From Verrucomicrobiota bacterium (GTDB lineage Bacteria; Verrucomicrobiota; Verrucomicrobiia; Verrucomicrobiales; DEV007): a DNA stretch of 34,763 bases. The notes under the pieces were generated by a model. That model saw only the letters and a program-made list of their open reading frames with translations. It searched no databases and was not told the origin of the DNA. Below, piece after piece: positions 13,827 to 17,739 of the stretch. The translations under genes and the position numbers were made by a program. The first letter of the stretch is position 1. Every line of letters starts with the position of its first letter. The stretch is from assembly GCA_020630975.1 (NCBI GenBank), contig JAHDID010000059.1, positions 1 to 34,763 of the forward strand, given 5' to 3'.

Positions 13827-13917
13827 CAGCCGTCGTAAAGTTGTACAGTCTGGTCTGTCGAGATTGTGCGACGCATTCCCATGGCAAAGTCGAGGATACA
13901 ACCCAAACCATTTTTAA

Positions 13918-14069
13918 ACCGATGTTGAAAAGCTCTCTTTTCCGCGTCGGTCTGGCAGCGGTAACTCCAAAAAGCCCGAAGGGGTGCAGCGAACTAGTGC
14001 GCACTTCTGATCAAAGCATGGGCTCCTCAATCTCTCTCCCCGGCAGGCTCTTAAGTCGGGATATTTTTT
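13918..14069 (+). promoter_or_regulatory. structured phnD leader, candidate riboswitch or attenuator
   Basis: A 13-bp hairpin is formed by ACCGATG (13918-13924) with CGTCGGT (13945-13951) and GAAAAG (13927-13932) with CTTTTC (13937-13942), capped by CTCT, with a 2x2 internal loop. Downstream, GGGG (13981-13984) can pair with CCCC (14038-14041), and AGCCC (13973-13977) with GGGCT (14020-14024). The bases CCCGGC (14039-14044) can instead pair with GTCGGG (14055-14060), a stem followed by ATATTTTTT. The competing use of CCC is the usual logic of transcriptional attenuation. It matches no riboswitch class I know. Confidence 0.5.
14039..14069 (+). terminator. terminator-like hairpin in the phnD leader
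   Basis: CCCGGC (14039-14044) pairs with GTCGGG (14055-14060), with one G-U pair and a 10-base loop, followed by ATATTTTTT. It lies 83 bases before the phnD start. It is short and of medium stability, consistent with a conditional terminator. Confidence 0.45.
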
Positions 14070-14151: not shown

Positions 14152-15147
14152 ATGAAAAAACTAAAACAACTCGCCTTCGCGGCATTGTTCCTTACCGGTG
14201 CAGCTTTCCTGCCTAGCTGTAATAATAGTGAAACCACGGCCGATGCACCGGCTGCTGCAGAGAGCGCACCAGCTTCTACTGAAGAGGCGCCAGCAGCTGC
14301 AGAGGCGGCTGCTCCGACCCCAGCTCCTGCGAAAGAGGCTCCAAAGAAGGCTCTCGTGATCTCGGCTATCCCAGACAAAAAGATCTCTGATCAGGCGGCT
14401 AGCTACAAGGCGCTCGCTGACTACCTAGCGAAGACTCTCGACGTCGAGGTGAAGTACGACGTCTCCGAGGACTACCCAGCAGCGGTGACTCGCTTCGCCA
14501 ATGATGAGGTACACCTCATGTGGTTTGGTGGTCTCACAGGTGTCCAGGCCCGTGCCAAAGTCGAGGGCGCTCGTGCTATCGCTCAGGGTGTGGTCGATCC
14601 GATGTACAAGTCCTACTTCATCGCGCACAAGTCCACTGGTCTGAAGAAGTCCGATGAGTTTCCGAAGGAGATCGCTGACATGTCTTTCACATTCGGCTCT
14701 AAGAGCTCCACATCAGGTCGTCTCATGCCGACTTTCTTCATCCAGAAAGAGACAGGCAAGAAGCCTGAGGAGTTTTTCACCAGCGCACCACAGTTCCGCG
14801 CCAAGGGTAGCCACACTGCGACAGCCACTGTGGTCAATGAAGGCTCTGTGCAGGTCGGTGCTCTCAGCTACAAGACATTCGACAAGATGAAGGCCGCAGG
14901 CGACCTGCCAGACTGCGACATCATCTGGGAGACTCCTGGCTACGCAGACTACAACTTCACAGCACACCCATCGCTGGACGAGACATTCGGCGCTGGCTTC
15001 ATCGACAAGCTGCAGAAGGCACTAGTCGACTGTAAAGACGAGAAGGCGCTCGGCGCGATCATGCGCGAAGAGGGGCTCATCCCAGCTAAAAACTCAGACT
15101 TCGATGGCATCGTGAAGGTGGCTAAGGAGCTGGAGTTCATCAGATAA
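14152..15147 (+). CDS. phnD: PhnD-like ABC transporter substrate-binding lipoprotein (oxyanion type)
   Basis: The 331-residue lipoprotein has a lipobox ending LPSC (Cys22) and then an Ala/Pro/Glu-rich linker (about 25-65). The binding domain begins KALVISAIPDKKISDQ and contains EVHLMWFGGLTGVQAR and TFGSKSSTSGRLMP. These two motifs match the PhnD-related subfamily usually annotated as putative selenate binding proteins rather than classical alkylphosphonate binders, so the ligand may be phosphonate, phosphite, selenate or another oxyanion. It would capture the ligand in the periplasm for PhnC and PhnE. Reading from 14068 would add a non-signal-like extension; the ATG at 14152 gives a clean signal peptide. 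A terminator lies between it and phnC, consistent with more binding protein than ATPase. Confidence 0.88.
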   Translation: MKKLKQLAFAALFLTGAAFLPSCNNSETTADAPAAAESAPASTEEAPAAAEAAAPTPAPAKEAPKKALVISAIPDKKISDQAASYKALADYLAKTLDVEVKYDVSEDYPAAVTRFANDEVHLMWFGGLTGVQARAKVEGARAIAQGVVDPMYKSYFIAHKSTGLKKSDEFPKEIADMSFTFGSKSSTSGRLMPTFFIQKETGKKPEEFFTSAPQFRAKGSHTATATVVNEGSVQVGALSYKTFDKMKAAGDLPDCDIIWETPGYADYNFTAHPSLDETFGAGFIDKLQKALVDCKDEKALGAIMREEGLIPAKNSDFDGIVKVAKELEFIR

Positions 15148-15165
15148 TTTTCCTTATCTTTCCAT

Positions 15166-15200
15166 CCTCTCCGCCACTGCGCGGAGGGGATTTCTTTTTT
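15166..15200 (+). terminator. intrinsic terminator between phnD and phnC
   Basis: CCTCTCCGC (15166-15174) pairs with GCGGAGGGG (15181-15189), with one T-G pair, around CACTGC, followed by ATTTCTTTTTT. It is 18 bases after the phnD stop and 17 before the phnC start. Partial read-through would give stoichiometric excess of the binding protein, as in many ABC operons. Confidence 0.85.
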
Positions 15201-15217
15201 GCCTATACTTGGTTGTC

Positions 15218-15973
15218 GTGTTTCAGCTCGATCATATCTCCAAGGCGTTTCAACAGACGCAGGCTCTCAGCGATGTATCGCTGGATATCGACAAAGGCGA
15301 GATGGTCGCCCTGATCGGTCCCTCGGGCAGTGGCAAGACGACCCTGCTCAAACTCCTCAATGCGCAGCATATGCCGACCTCTGGCCGACTCGCTGTAGAC
15401 GGAGCTGATATCGAGTCTCTCTCTCGGAGCTCGCTCAAACAAGTGCGACAGCAGATCGCCTACATACCTCAGGACCTCGGCTTGGTGCCGAATCTCAAGG
15501 TCTTTCAAAATATCTTGCTCGGAAAGATAGGCTCCACGGCTTCTTGGTCTCTGATCCGGCAGTTTTTCTTTCCCACCCAAGCGGAGCTGACCGCGATCCA
15601 CTCGATCCTCGAGGATGTGGGCATCCCGGAGAAACTCTACCAACAGACCTCATCGCTCTCCGGTGGCCAACAGCAGCGAGTGGCCGTAGCGCGTGCGCTG
15701 TATCAGAATGCGCATACGATACTGGCCGACGAGCCGGTATCTGCAGTCGACCCAGCTCGGGCGCGATCGCTGGTCACGCTGCTCAGCGAGATATCTGCGG
15801 AAAAGAACATCTCGGTGATCATGTCCATTCACAATACGGATATCGCCACTGCCATGTTTCCTCGCATCATCGGTCTGAAATCGGGGCATCTCGCATTCGA
15901 TACCGCCTCGCCGACTGAAGAGGCTATGGCCGATCTCTACCTGATACCGGACCAACAAATCACCGAGGCGTAG
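15218..15973 (+). CDS. phnC: PhnC-like ABC transporter ATP-binding protein
   Basis: The ATPase of the oxyanion importer has about 251 residues from a GTG at 15218; a TTG at 15209 is the alternative. Walker A is GPSGSGKTT (about 31-39), the Q-loop lies in YIPQDLGLVPNLKV, the signature is LSGGQQQRVAVARALYQ, Walker B ILADEPVSAVDP, and the H-loop MSIHNTDIA. The insertion GKIGSTASWSLIRQFFFPTQAE between Q-loop and signature is typical of PhnC-type ATPases, whose helical region usually carries such a long segment. It ends two bases before the permease ATG, and a TAGGG overlapping its stop can serve as the permease ribosome-binding site, so the two are coupled. Confidence 0.9.
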   Translation: MFQLDHISKAFQQTQALSDVSLDIDKGEMVALIGPSGSGKTTLLKLLNAQHMPTSGRLAVDGADIESLSRSSLKQVRQQIAYIPQDLGLVPNLKVFQNILLGKIGSTASWSLIRQFFFPTQAELTAIHSILEDVGIPEKLYQQTSSLSGGQQQRVAVARALYQNAHTILADEPVSAVDPARARSLVTLLSEISAEKNISVIMSIHNTDIATAMFPRIIGLKSGHLAFDTASPTEEAMADLYLIPDQQITEA

Positions 15974-15975
15974 GG

Positions 15976-17739
15976 ATGAAGCAGGTACATATCGGCAATC
16001 GAGTTCTATTCACTGCCTTTCTGGTGCTATTGCTCGGCTGGTGCCTATTCAATAGTGGTCTCGCGGGTAAAGACTTTTTGCCCAATCCGTATGGCATTAG
16101 CCTGTTTCAGAAATTTCTGGCAGCGGCCTTTCAGCCGGCGCTCGACTACCAGGCCGATTGGGTGCCAGATGATGCTCCGCCATTTTTCATCAAGGTCGTG
16201 TCATCGCTGTGGCTCACGATCAAATACGCGACCTGTGCCATCTCTCTATCGCTGGTCGTAGGTGTGTTGTTTGGCACACTGGCCTCGCAGTCTTGGTGGC
16301 ATACCTCTAGCTATAGGCAGACAGGATTTTTACTGCGATCGCTGCGTCGTGTGGTCCGGGTGTTGATCACAGCTGGGCGCTCGATACACGAGCTGCTCTG
16401 GGCTATGCTTTTAGTTACGGCTCTGGGCACCTCGCCACTGGCCATCATCGTCGCCCTAGCGATTCCTTATGGGAGCACATTGGCCAAGGTTTTTTCTGAG
16501 ATCCTCGACGAACAGCCCACTCATACCAAGGACTACCTGCTCACCCAGGGTGGTCATGGTACCACCGCGTGGTTGTTTACCATCGTCCCCTCGGCTCTGC
16601 CGGATCTGGTTAGCTATGCTTTATATCGATTTGAGTGTGCGATCCGTTCTGCAGCGATTCTCGGCTTTGTCGGTATACCGACACTTGGCTATCACATCCA
16701 GACCGCGATGGGGGACTTTCACCTTTACGAAATCTGGACCCTGCTATACACGCTGCTGGCGACGATCCTCATCGTAGAGTTTCTCAGCAATCGGGTGCGC
16801 CGTCTCATCACTAAAGAAAAAATATCGACTACCCGTCCGCAGGATCATTCGCTGGCCGAGATCACCAGGCATCGCCCTAAGGCTCGTGCGCTGCATTTAT
16901 CGGTAGCTATCATAGTGGTATTCATAGTCTTCGCCTGGGTGCAGGGGGAGTCGCCTTTTTCAGATGTGCCCTGGGAGAAACGTATGACCAATCTGGAGCG
17001 TTTTCTCACCAAAGAGCTGATGCCGTATCCCGTGCAGCAATCGGGCGACTGGGCAGATGCCCTGCCATGGGCTGGAGAGCTGCTAGCGGAAAAGGGTTTC
17101 ACGGCTGGTCTGCAAACTTTTTATCTAGGCACAGCGGCGATCATCCTAGCCTTTCTCGCTTCGCTGATCACTCTGCCTCTAGCATCCAAGCGCCTCAATC
17201 AATCTCAGCCACTGGAGATCAATATCGGTAGTAGCAGGCTGCTAGCTATTGTGGGTGCGGTTCATTCCTTGTTTCACCGTCTCATTTACATCGTCACCCG
17301 GGCGATGCCGGAGTACTTATTGGCATTTCTACTGGTTCAGATTTTTGGCCCCACAGCTTGGCCGCTCATCCTAGGCCTAGCCCTGCACAACTACGGCATC
17401 GTAGGGCGGCTCGGCGGTGAGCTGATCGACAATTCGAATCTCCGCGAAGCCAAAGTCCAGCTAGCTCATGGTAGCTCAACCATGGGGACCTACTTTTTCT
17501 CCATCCTGCCCGCTTACTTCAATCGCTTTTTGCTCTACTTTTTCTACCGCTGGGAGACCTGTATCCGCGATGCCACAGTCCTAGGTATACTCGGTATCAC
17601 CTCTTTGGGTTTCCTCATCAGCGATGCCAGTGCCCGCGATCACAATGACGAGATGTTTTTCTTCATCCTAGTCGGCGCCGCCATCGTCATGCTCGGTGAT
17701 TTCGCTTCGGATGCGGTTCGTGGCAAACTGCGGGGGTAG
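15976..17739 (+). CDS. phnE: fused two-domain PhnE-like ABC permease
   Basis: The 587-residue inner-membrane protein contains two consecutive BPD_transp_1 permease units, so one chain probably forms the whole channel. Unit 1 (about 60-275) has the coupling region SEILDEQPTHTKDYLLTQGG and the IRSAAILGFVGIPTLGYHI segment. Unit 2 (about 375-585) has GELIDNSNLREAKVQLAHGSS and IRDATVLGILGITSLGFLI. The parallel motifs show internal duplication and fusion. A linker with one further hydrophobic stretch (SVAIIVVFIVFAWVQG) lies near 310-325. It starts two bases after phnC and completes the importer. No phosphonate-degrading or selenoprotein gene is nearby to settle the substrate. Confidence 0.9.
   Translation: MKQVHIGNRVLFTAFLVLLLGWCLFNSGLAGKDFLPNPYGISLFQKFLAAAFQPALDYQADWVPDDAPPFFIKVVSSLWLTIKYATCAISLSLVVGVLFGTLASQSWWHTSSYRQTGFLLRSLRRVVRVLITAGRSIHELLWAMLLVTALGTSPLAIIVALAIPYGSTLAKVFSEILDEQPTHTKDYLLTQGGHGTTAWLFTIVPSALPDLVSYALYRFECAIRSAAILGFVGIPTLGYHIQTAMGDFHLYEIWTLLYTLLATILIVEFLSNRVRRLITKEKISTTRPQDHSLAEITRHRPKARALHLSVAIIVVFIVFAWVQGESPFSDVPWEKRMTNLERFLTKELMPYPVQQSGDWADALPWAGELLAEKGFTAGLQTFYLGTAAIILAFLASLITLPLASKRLNQSQPLEINIGSSRLLAIVGAVHSLFHRLIYIVTRAMPEYLLAFLLVQIFGPTAWPLILGLALHNYGIVGRLGGELIDNSNLREAKVQLAHGSSTMGTYFFSILPAYFNRFLLYFFYRWETCIRDATVLGILGITSLGFLISDASARDHNDEMFFFILVGAAIVMLGDFASDAVRGKLRG

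Follow-up and report, generated by a model that had tools for sequence, protein, structure and literature searches.

In a 34,763-nucleotide stretch of Verrucomicrobiota DNA (positions 1-34,763 of contig JAHDID010000059.1 in assembly GCA_020630975.1, lineage DEV007; hereafter the window), a putative oxyanion importer operon is preceded by a short upstream open reading frame (ORF) that carries an in-frame UGA, an AUG overlapping that UGA and a SECIS-like hairpin behind it. We propose that this arrangement acts as a selenium-sensing translational switch, in which selenocysteine (Sec) decoding of the UGA would compete with termination and reinitiation at the overlapping AUG, and from the sequence evidence we consider this reading probable. 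The sensor would most likely be the ribosome with SelB and Sec-tRNA, since the conserved piece of the leader is a translated-looking ORF with an in-frame UGA and a SECIS-like hairpin. The sequence anatomy, set out below and in Table 1, is well supported.

Table 1. Features of the importer locus, in positions of the window
Feature	Position	Strand	Remarks
Upstream ORF with in-frame UGA	13881..13964	+	ATG 13881; Cys TGT 13923-13925; UGA 13926-13928; TAA 13962-13964
AUG overlapping UGA (AUGUUGA), proposed reinitiation start	13922..13924	+	SBP start codon itself in 18 relatives
Bridging ORF, 72 codons	13922..14140	+	stop TAA 14138-14140; 11 nt before SBP ATG; spans terminator-like stem
Small helix at UGA, inner part of first hairpin	13928..13941	+	13928-13932 with 13937-13941; 3 pairs changed on both sides
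bSECIS-like hairpin CCGC-GUC[GGUCU]GGC-A-GCGG	13942..13961	+	apical loop 13949-13953; 20 nt after UGA; compensatory CCAC/GUGG in L019
Terminator-like stem CCCGGC/GTCGGG with T-rich tail	14039..14069	+	within bridging ORF; -8.0 kcal/mol, reached in 1/300 block shuffles
Lipoprotein SBP, selenate/PhnD type	14152..15147	+	PF12974; TIGR04553 248.7 bits (cut-off 250)
ABC transporter ATPase, PhnC-like	15209..15973	+	start codon uncertain
ABC transporter permease	15976..17739	+	two PhnE-like stretches in a single ORF

The conserved core and its relatives

With the leader as query, BLAST against 95 related genomes recovered stretches of 25-69 nt from around the hairpin, 83-100% identical, at 20 places spread over 18 genomes other than the window's; beyond the latter, the hairpin region was the only part of the leader recovered. 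Eighteen of these places are the start of the orthologous SBP gene, where the core is 83-96% identical to the window and encodes a lipoprotein signal peptide (MLKxxxFRVGLAAVT...), and the remaining two are free-standing copies in genomes G024 and G029. The orthologous SBPs are about 50% identical to the window's protein. The conserved core spans positions 13920-13966 and is coding. Across SBP codons 1-14, residues that agree also share their codon in 87% of cases; elsewhere in the gene the mean is 47% and the sliding maximum 64%. Because this agreement exceeds that in the rest of the SBP gene, the core nucleotides themselves appear to be constrained, while core nucleotide identity among the SBP genes (0.871) is little above that of the best other stretch (0.846).

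Type A, with 21 of the 31 elements considered here, is made up of the window and the places found by BLAST; the other ten are five type-B elements found by pattern, four found with a covariance model (L106-L109), and L127. The model, built from 26 elements, gave 30 matches in 27 of 74 family genomes, 26 of them by construction and four new. Among 80 named loci it matched 14, all titled Verrucomicrobiales bacterium, and 13 of these had already been counted; the new one is L127 (AH-601-G14), which does not carry a MAG label, with an E-value of 0.029. A class-wide search with the model matched one of 384 genomes, the window's own; this search was weak, with 15 candidates per genome among the matches listed, and its sample apparently drew none of the other element-bearing genomes. 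A looser hairpin pattern yielded 51 matches in the 74 genomes, of which 30 are the model's elements and the other 21 compare with 20 in a reversed control. Among the matches listed, titles and abstracts of the open-licence literature describe no such element.

Every one of the 31 elements has an in-frame ATG 30-51 nt 5' of the UGA with no stop between them, and none has one in either of the other frames (0/31 in each). Of the 21 matches to the looser hairpin pattern that are not elements, eight were checked, and this upstream start is absent from all eight. The stop that would end readthrough is held in place across the 21 type-A elements (TAA in 19, TAG in L051, TGA in L043). Read one base off the frame of the SBP gene, the core has the form TGT/TGC-TGA-(12 nt)-TCC GCG TCG GTC TGG CAG CGG TAA; in the window, with the UGA taken as Sec, the peptide would be MAKSRIQPKPFLNRC-U-KALFSASVWQR, followed by a UAA stop. 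By its sequence the upstream ORF looks translated, and it would encode roughly 26-31 residues, or 13 where the element reads UGAUGA (see below).

The overlap of UGA and AUG takes the form AUGUUGA in 21 elements (AUG at -4), AUGA in 7 (-1) and UGAUG in 3 (+2), and the overlapping AUG is the start of the importer gene in 27 of the 31. L017, L109 and L127 read UGAUGA, which places two consecutive UGA codons in the upstream ORF. These forms (3/31) fit the proposed switch poorly: after Sec at the first UGA, the second would stop the ribosome beside the AUG, and such elements would have to insert Sec at both codons or function in another way. In L049 and L050, an AGGAGG precedes the start codon of the SBP gene, which makes direct initiation possible there.

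In all 26 aligned elements, the hairpin loop (GGUCU or GGUCC) starts 20 nt past the UGA, a constancy that partly reflects selection, as the type-B elements and the model hits were chosen with loop-containing patterns; for the 20 BLAST places, loop and spacing were not a search condition. The stems are CCGC-GUC/GGC-A-GCGG in type A, UUGCC/GGCAA or UUGUC/GGCAA in type B, and CCAC/GUGG in L019. Pairing holds in 96.4% of cells across the type-A sequences (n = 21), with two-sided changes at four pairs, three in the small helix at the UGA and one in the SECIS helix. None of 500 shuffles, which ignore relatedness, reaches these four pairs, and the further pair types in the alignment are reached by 9 of 500. 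The bSECIS model, in the part of PMC13188914 drawn on here, has an apical loop of 3-9 nt, a stem of 4-16 bp, a G in the first two loop positions, a distance of 16-37 nt from the UGA and a minimum free energy of at most -7.5 kcal/mol. Thirty of the 31 elements, including the window, agree with its conditions i-iii, the exception being L043, which folds unlike the model; 18 of the 31 minimal hairpins reach the energy limit, the window's at -8.2 kcal/mol.

A sequence-only reading of the window had taken the leader for a new riboswitch or attenuator, built on a strong 13-bp hairpin and on a GGGG:CCCC pairing that would exclude a terminator-like stem made from the same C residues. All of its strings are present: the hairpin arms at 13918-13951, GGGG at 13981-13984, CCCC at 14038-14041, and CCCGGC (14039-14044) with GTCGGG (14055-14060), followed by ATATTTTTT at 14061-14069. 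The first hairpin is real, and its inner helix (AAAAG/CUUUU) covaries, with three pairs changed on both sides among the 21 aligned sequences. Its outer part (GATG/CGTC) shows no two-sided change: the outermost pair is lost in 4 of 21 sequences and the next in 1 of 21, and this part competes with the better supported, slightly shifted SECIS-like hairpin. We have rejected this outer half, which is without covariation. The minimum-energy structure from RNAfold contains both the first hairpin and the terminator-like stem, and the GGGG:CCCC pairing is absent from it. Stability of the whole leader is unremarkable (z -1.07 with RNAfold; z +0.90 without the first hairpin). The terminator-like stem exceeds chance against simple block shuffles, is not listed by a stricter scan (loops up to 8), and may take part in regulation.

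Searched with Rfam, the window contains two tRNAs and no other match over the gathering score; a lax search of the leader gave atoC, nearby, as its best weak match (22.1 bits against 50). The sequence-only reading had compared the leader by eye with TPP, SAM-I, glycine, glutamine and cobalamin cores and seen no match. What holds of its interpretation is a conserved cis-regulatory leader before an oxyanion importer and, probably, feedback by the imported element; the kind of sensor is wrong, and no sign of a ligand-binding aptamer was found in the leader.

Among the 79 of 80 named SBP loci with upstream sequence, UGA/start overlaps with hairpins are of the known type, apart from isolated weak candidates and a hairpin of another kind in Akkermansiaceae, which lacks a conserved ORF. 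In L113, L114, L116, L117 and L119, importer loci of Akkermansiaceae and Verrucomicrobiales MAGs, another hairpin, e.g. GGGCAAUC[GGUC]GAUUGCUC, lies about 50-150 nt before the SBP match, between two in-frame ATGs and with CCACGGGACAC upstream; a conserved upstream ORF is absent there. The SBP leader of L115 and L120 (Roseibacillus persicicus) contains GGATGTGGGTCCACATCC and GTCGACGG, then a T-run, and resembles a separate attenuator.

Selenium genes around the importer

The best-scoring family for the window's SBP is the putative selenate family TIGR04553, just below the cut-off (Table 1), and the orthologue in G006 passes it with 252.4 bits. In that genome the operon runs selD-selA-[element]-SBP-ATPase-two permeases-selB (selD 347.6 bits, selA 511.8, selB 290.8). 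Because of this best score and the place of the orthologue between selD-selA and selB, the imported element is most likely selenium. The window's genome itself encodes SelA (522.4 bits), SelB (272.6) and tRNA-Sec(UCA) (58.6), each above its cut-off and located on contigs other than the window's.

The association extends to the relatives. In 12 element-bearing genomes, the SBP gene has selB on the same contig at a distance of no more than about 5 kb, and a thirteenth (G029) has a cut-off fragment of selB. Counting SBPs with an E-value of at most 1e-50 and SelB over its cut-off, 33 of the 95 relatives have both, 8 the SBP only, 5 SelB only and 49 neither (Fisher 7e-13). SelB is above its cut-off in 21 of 24 element-bearing genomes compared with 17 of 71 other relatives (Fisher 4e-8); the three element-bearing genomes below it have a partial SelB of 219.7 bits (G002), fragments at contig ends (G029) and, in a genome that is 85% complete, a best SelB match of 189.5 bits (G045). 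Neither BLAST nor the covariance model found an element in 12 of the 33 relatives with both SBP and SelB.

Detached copies and bridging ORFs

The window's SBP does not start at the overlapping AUG, which instead opens a bridging ORF. Three more elements, two in G024 and one in G029, are free-standing. Their bridging ORFs measure 70, 87 and 65 codons: the first overlaps a thioredoxin-like gene as ATGA, the second ends 2 nt before a rhodanese gene and the third 22 nt before a Porin_O_P gene. The bridging ORF thus ends -4, +2, +11 or +22 nt from the next gene in all four detached elements. Shuffled spacers end within -10 to +25 nt, an interval chosen after the cases were seen, in 20% (window), 28, 15 and 6% of cases, a product of 5e-4. 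A weaker terminator-like stem is found in one of the other three bridging regions and none in two.

The thioredoxin-like gene behind the element has the active site CGPC. Five of its eight best homologues in other genomes (L192-L199) contain a single in-frame TGA, which falls exactly at the first Cys of CGPC in all five as aligned, together with two of the three TGA-less homologues; the proteins of L192, L193, L195, L197 and L199 are likely selenoproteins. The element would then precede the cysteine form of a selenoprotein, as induction at low selenium would want. Methanococcus maripaludis uses Cys isoforms under selenium shortage, according to a portion of PMC11097638; that organism is an archaeon, whereas in our case a Sec-type mini-ORF stands before the Cys form of a thioredoxin-like gene. 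For the rhodanese, the homologue in G007 has no stop within the aligned part, and no selenoprotein counterpart was found.

The history of the window's importer may differ from that of its leader. Its SBP is 61-72% identical to 12 loci of Akkermansiaceae, Rubritalea, Roseibacillus, Persicirhabdus and unnamed Verrucomicrobiales, and 48-59% identical to 14 loci of its own family. The permease aligns nearly full length with those of the same 12 loci (44-54%), and G006 has two separate permease ORFs; the ATPase separates the two groups of loci poorly (43-57% versus 45-53%). The SBP and permease (14152-17739) are perhaps a horizontal replacement, and we infer, from these comparisons and not from a tree, that a native switch acquired a foreign transporter downstream, the two being linked by the bridging ORF.

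Proposed mechanism, alternatives and significance

In the proposed switch, a ribosome on the short upstream ORF would encounter the in-frame UGA with the SECIS-like hairpin behind it. When selenium is replete, with Sec-tRNA and SelB available, the UGA would be decoded as Sec and the ribosome would continue past the overlapping AUG, leaving the importer off; in the window it would reach a stop 36 nt further on. When selenium is poor, translation would end at the UGA and begin anew at the AUG that overlaps it, and the importer would be made. This AUG is itself the start codon of the importer's SBP gene in most element-bearing relatives, while in the window the bridging ORF would take ribosomes through the terminator-like stem and release them 11 nt before the importer gene; the stem lies inside the bridging ORF, so translation would melt it. 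The net effect would be negative feedback, with low selenium switching import on. Sec insertion, reinitiation, the sign of the regulation and any part played by the terminator are predictions of this scheme.

Several known systems share parts of it. Thanbichler and Bock are said to have described, in 2002, a SECIS-like leader element of E. coli selAB that mediates feedback through SelB. In regulation of that type, the SECIS-like element lies in the 5' untranslated region and no UGA is recoded. The common ground is a SECIS-type hairpin near the start codon of selenium genes and feedback by SelB and Sec-tRNA; here, by contrast, the hairpin sits in an ORF behind an in-frame UGA, which places it outside the selAB-type definition, with a stop/start overlap and an importer operon as the output. 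Translated leader peptides sense aminoacyl-tRNA, and recoding-based sensors include prfB (RF2) and antizyme. In these, as here, the fate of the ribosome at one codon of a short ORF reports the state of the cell, whereas the codon in our case is a Sec-UGA and the output would be termination-reinitiation at an overlapping AUG. As for leader-peptide control, the short ORF is supported by its frame-specific ATG and the effect on expression is predicted. The likeness to bSECIS elements, to the extent that they are described in the cited part of PMC13188914, lies in a hairpin 20 nt after an in-frame UGA with a small loop beginning with G; the element here differs in serving a mini-ORF and not an enzyme, with Sec insertion and SelB binding as predictions. 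Termination-reinitiation coupling occurs at ATGA/TGATG overlaps, as one section of PMC6728339 states, and mRNA structure just after stop codons acts on reinitiation, as an extract of PMC7518266 reports. Our elements share with these systems the stop/start overlap and the small helix at the stop codon; the difference is that the stop codon here would itself depend on selenium.

The main rival, which we regard as unlikely, is that the SECIS-like hairpin is a translational operator to which SelB binds together with Sec-tRNA, blocking initiation at the overlapping AUG, so that the UGA and the upstream ORF would be secondary. The constancy of the hairpin and its GGUC loop in the alignment, the start codon inside the conserved core, the selA and selB neighbours in G006 and the precedent reported for E. 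coli selAB would all suit such an operator, but it does not account for the presence of an in-frame ATG in every one of the 31 elements, for the 20-nt distance from UGA to loop, for the conserved stop after readthrough or for the bridging ORFs. It is quite improbable that the mini-ORF product, with its Cys-Sec motif, is a true small selenoprotein that has its own function, and that the overlap reflects nothing more than compactness. The window, L052 and all 18 type-A copies at SBP genes do retain C-U and SVW, and the readthrough stop is retained as well, but the first half of the peptide is variable among the elements, type B and L106 have no Cys before U, L051 has SAPVRQR, and the UGAUGA forms would end at once. 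The conserved half is doubly constrained, as SECIS and as SBP signal peptide, and the two peptides searched have no Pfam or NCBIfam match.

We consider the ligand-binding riboswitch or transcription attenuator of the sequence-only reading very improbable. It could draw on the terminator-like stem in the window and on the position of the leader before a transporter, but it has to contend with the lack of an Rfam match at the leader, with the recovery of the ORF core alone beyond the window's own genome, and with two of four bridging regions that have no terminator-like stem. Next to no credence goes to the possibility that the core is conserved as the start of a signal peptide only, with the UGA and hairpin as by-products of coding MLKxxxFRVGLAAV. 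The core does encode the SBP signal peptide in 18 relatives, but its codon identity is well above that of the remainder of the gene, and in the window and before the thioredoxin-like, rhodanese and porin genes it is not the signal peptide of those genes; the detached copies already disfavour this explanation.

With somewhat less assurance than for the switch itself, we think it likely that these elements represent a class of cis-acting genetic switch that is new: an upstream ORF that can move between genes, in which decoding of the UGA as Sec competes with termination and reinitiation at the overlapping AUG. It would let bacteria sense selenium, in effect as SelB and Sec-tRNA. The genes under its control, the importer, SelB, a porin and a selenoprotein in its Cys form, would make up a small regulon reached by direct overlap or through a bridging ORF, and the switch would still work where a foreign gene has taken the place of the one behind it, as the window suggests.

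Apart from predicted regulators of the LysR type, we are aware of little work on the way in which bacteria gauge how much selenium is available. According to the part of a 2022 review cited here (PMC9312934), a high-affinity system for selenium transport had yet to be identified. The element marks a probable selenium importer through its operon, with selD, selA and selB in G006, and offers a sensor that would read the end product, Sec decoding, directly at the ribosome. If the proposal is true, it would add regulation to the uses of the 21st amino acid, provide a compact selenium-responsive part for synthetic biology, and supply a searchable signature of genes wanted only under selenium shortage.
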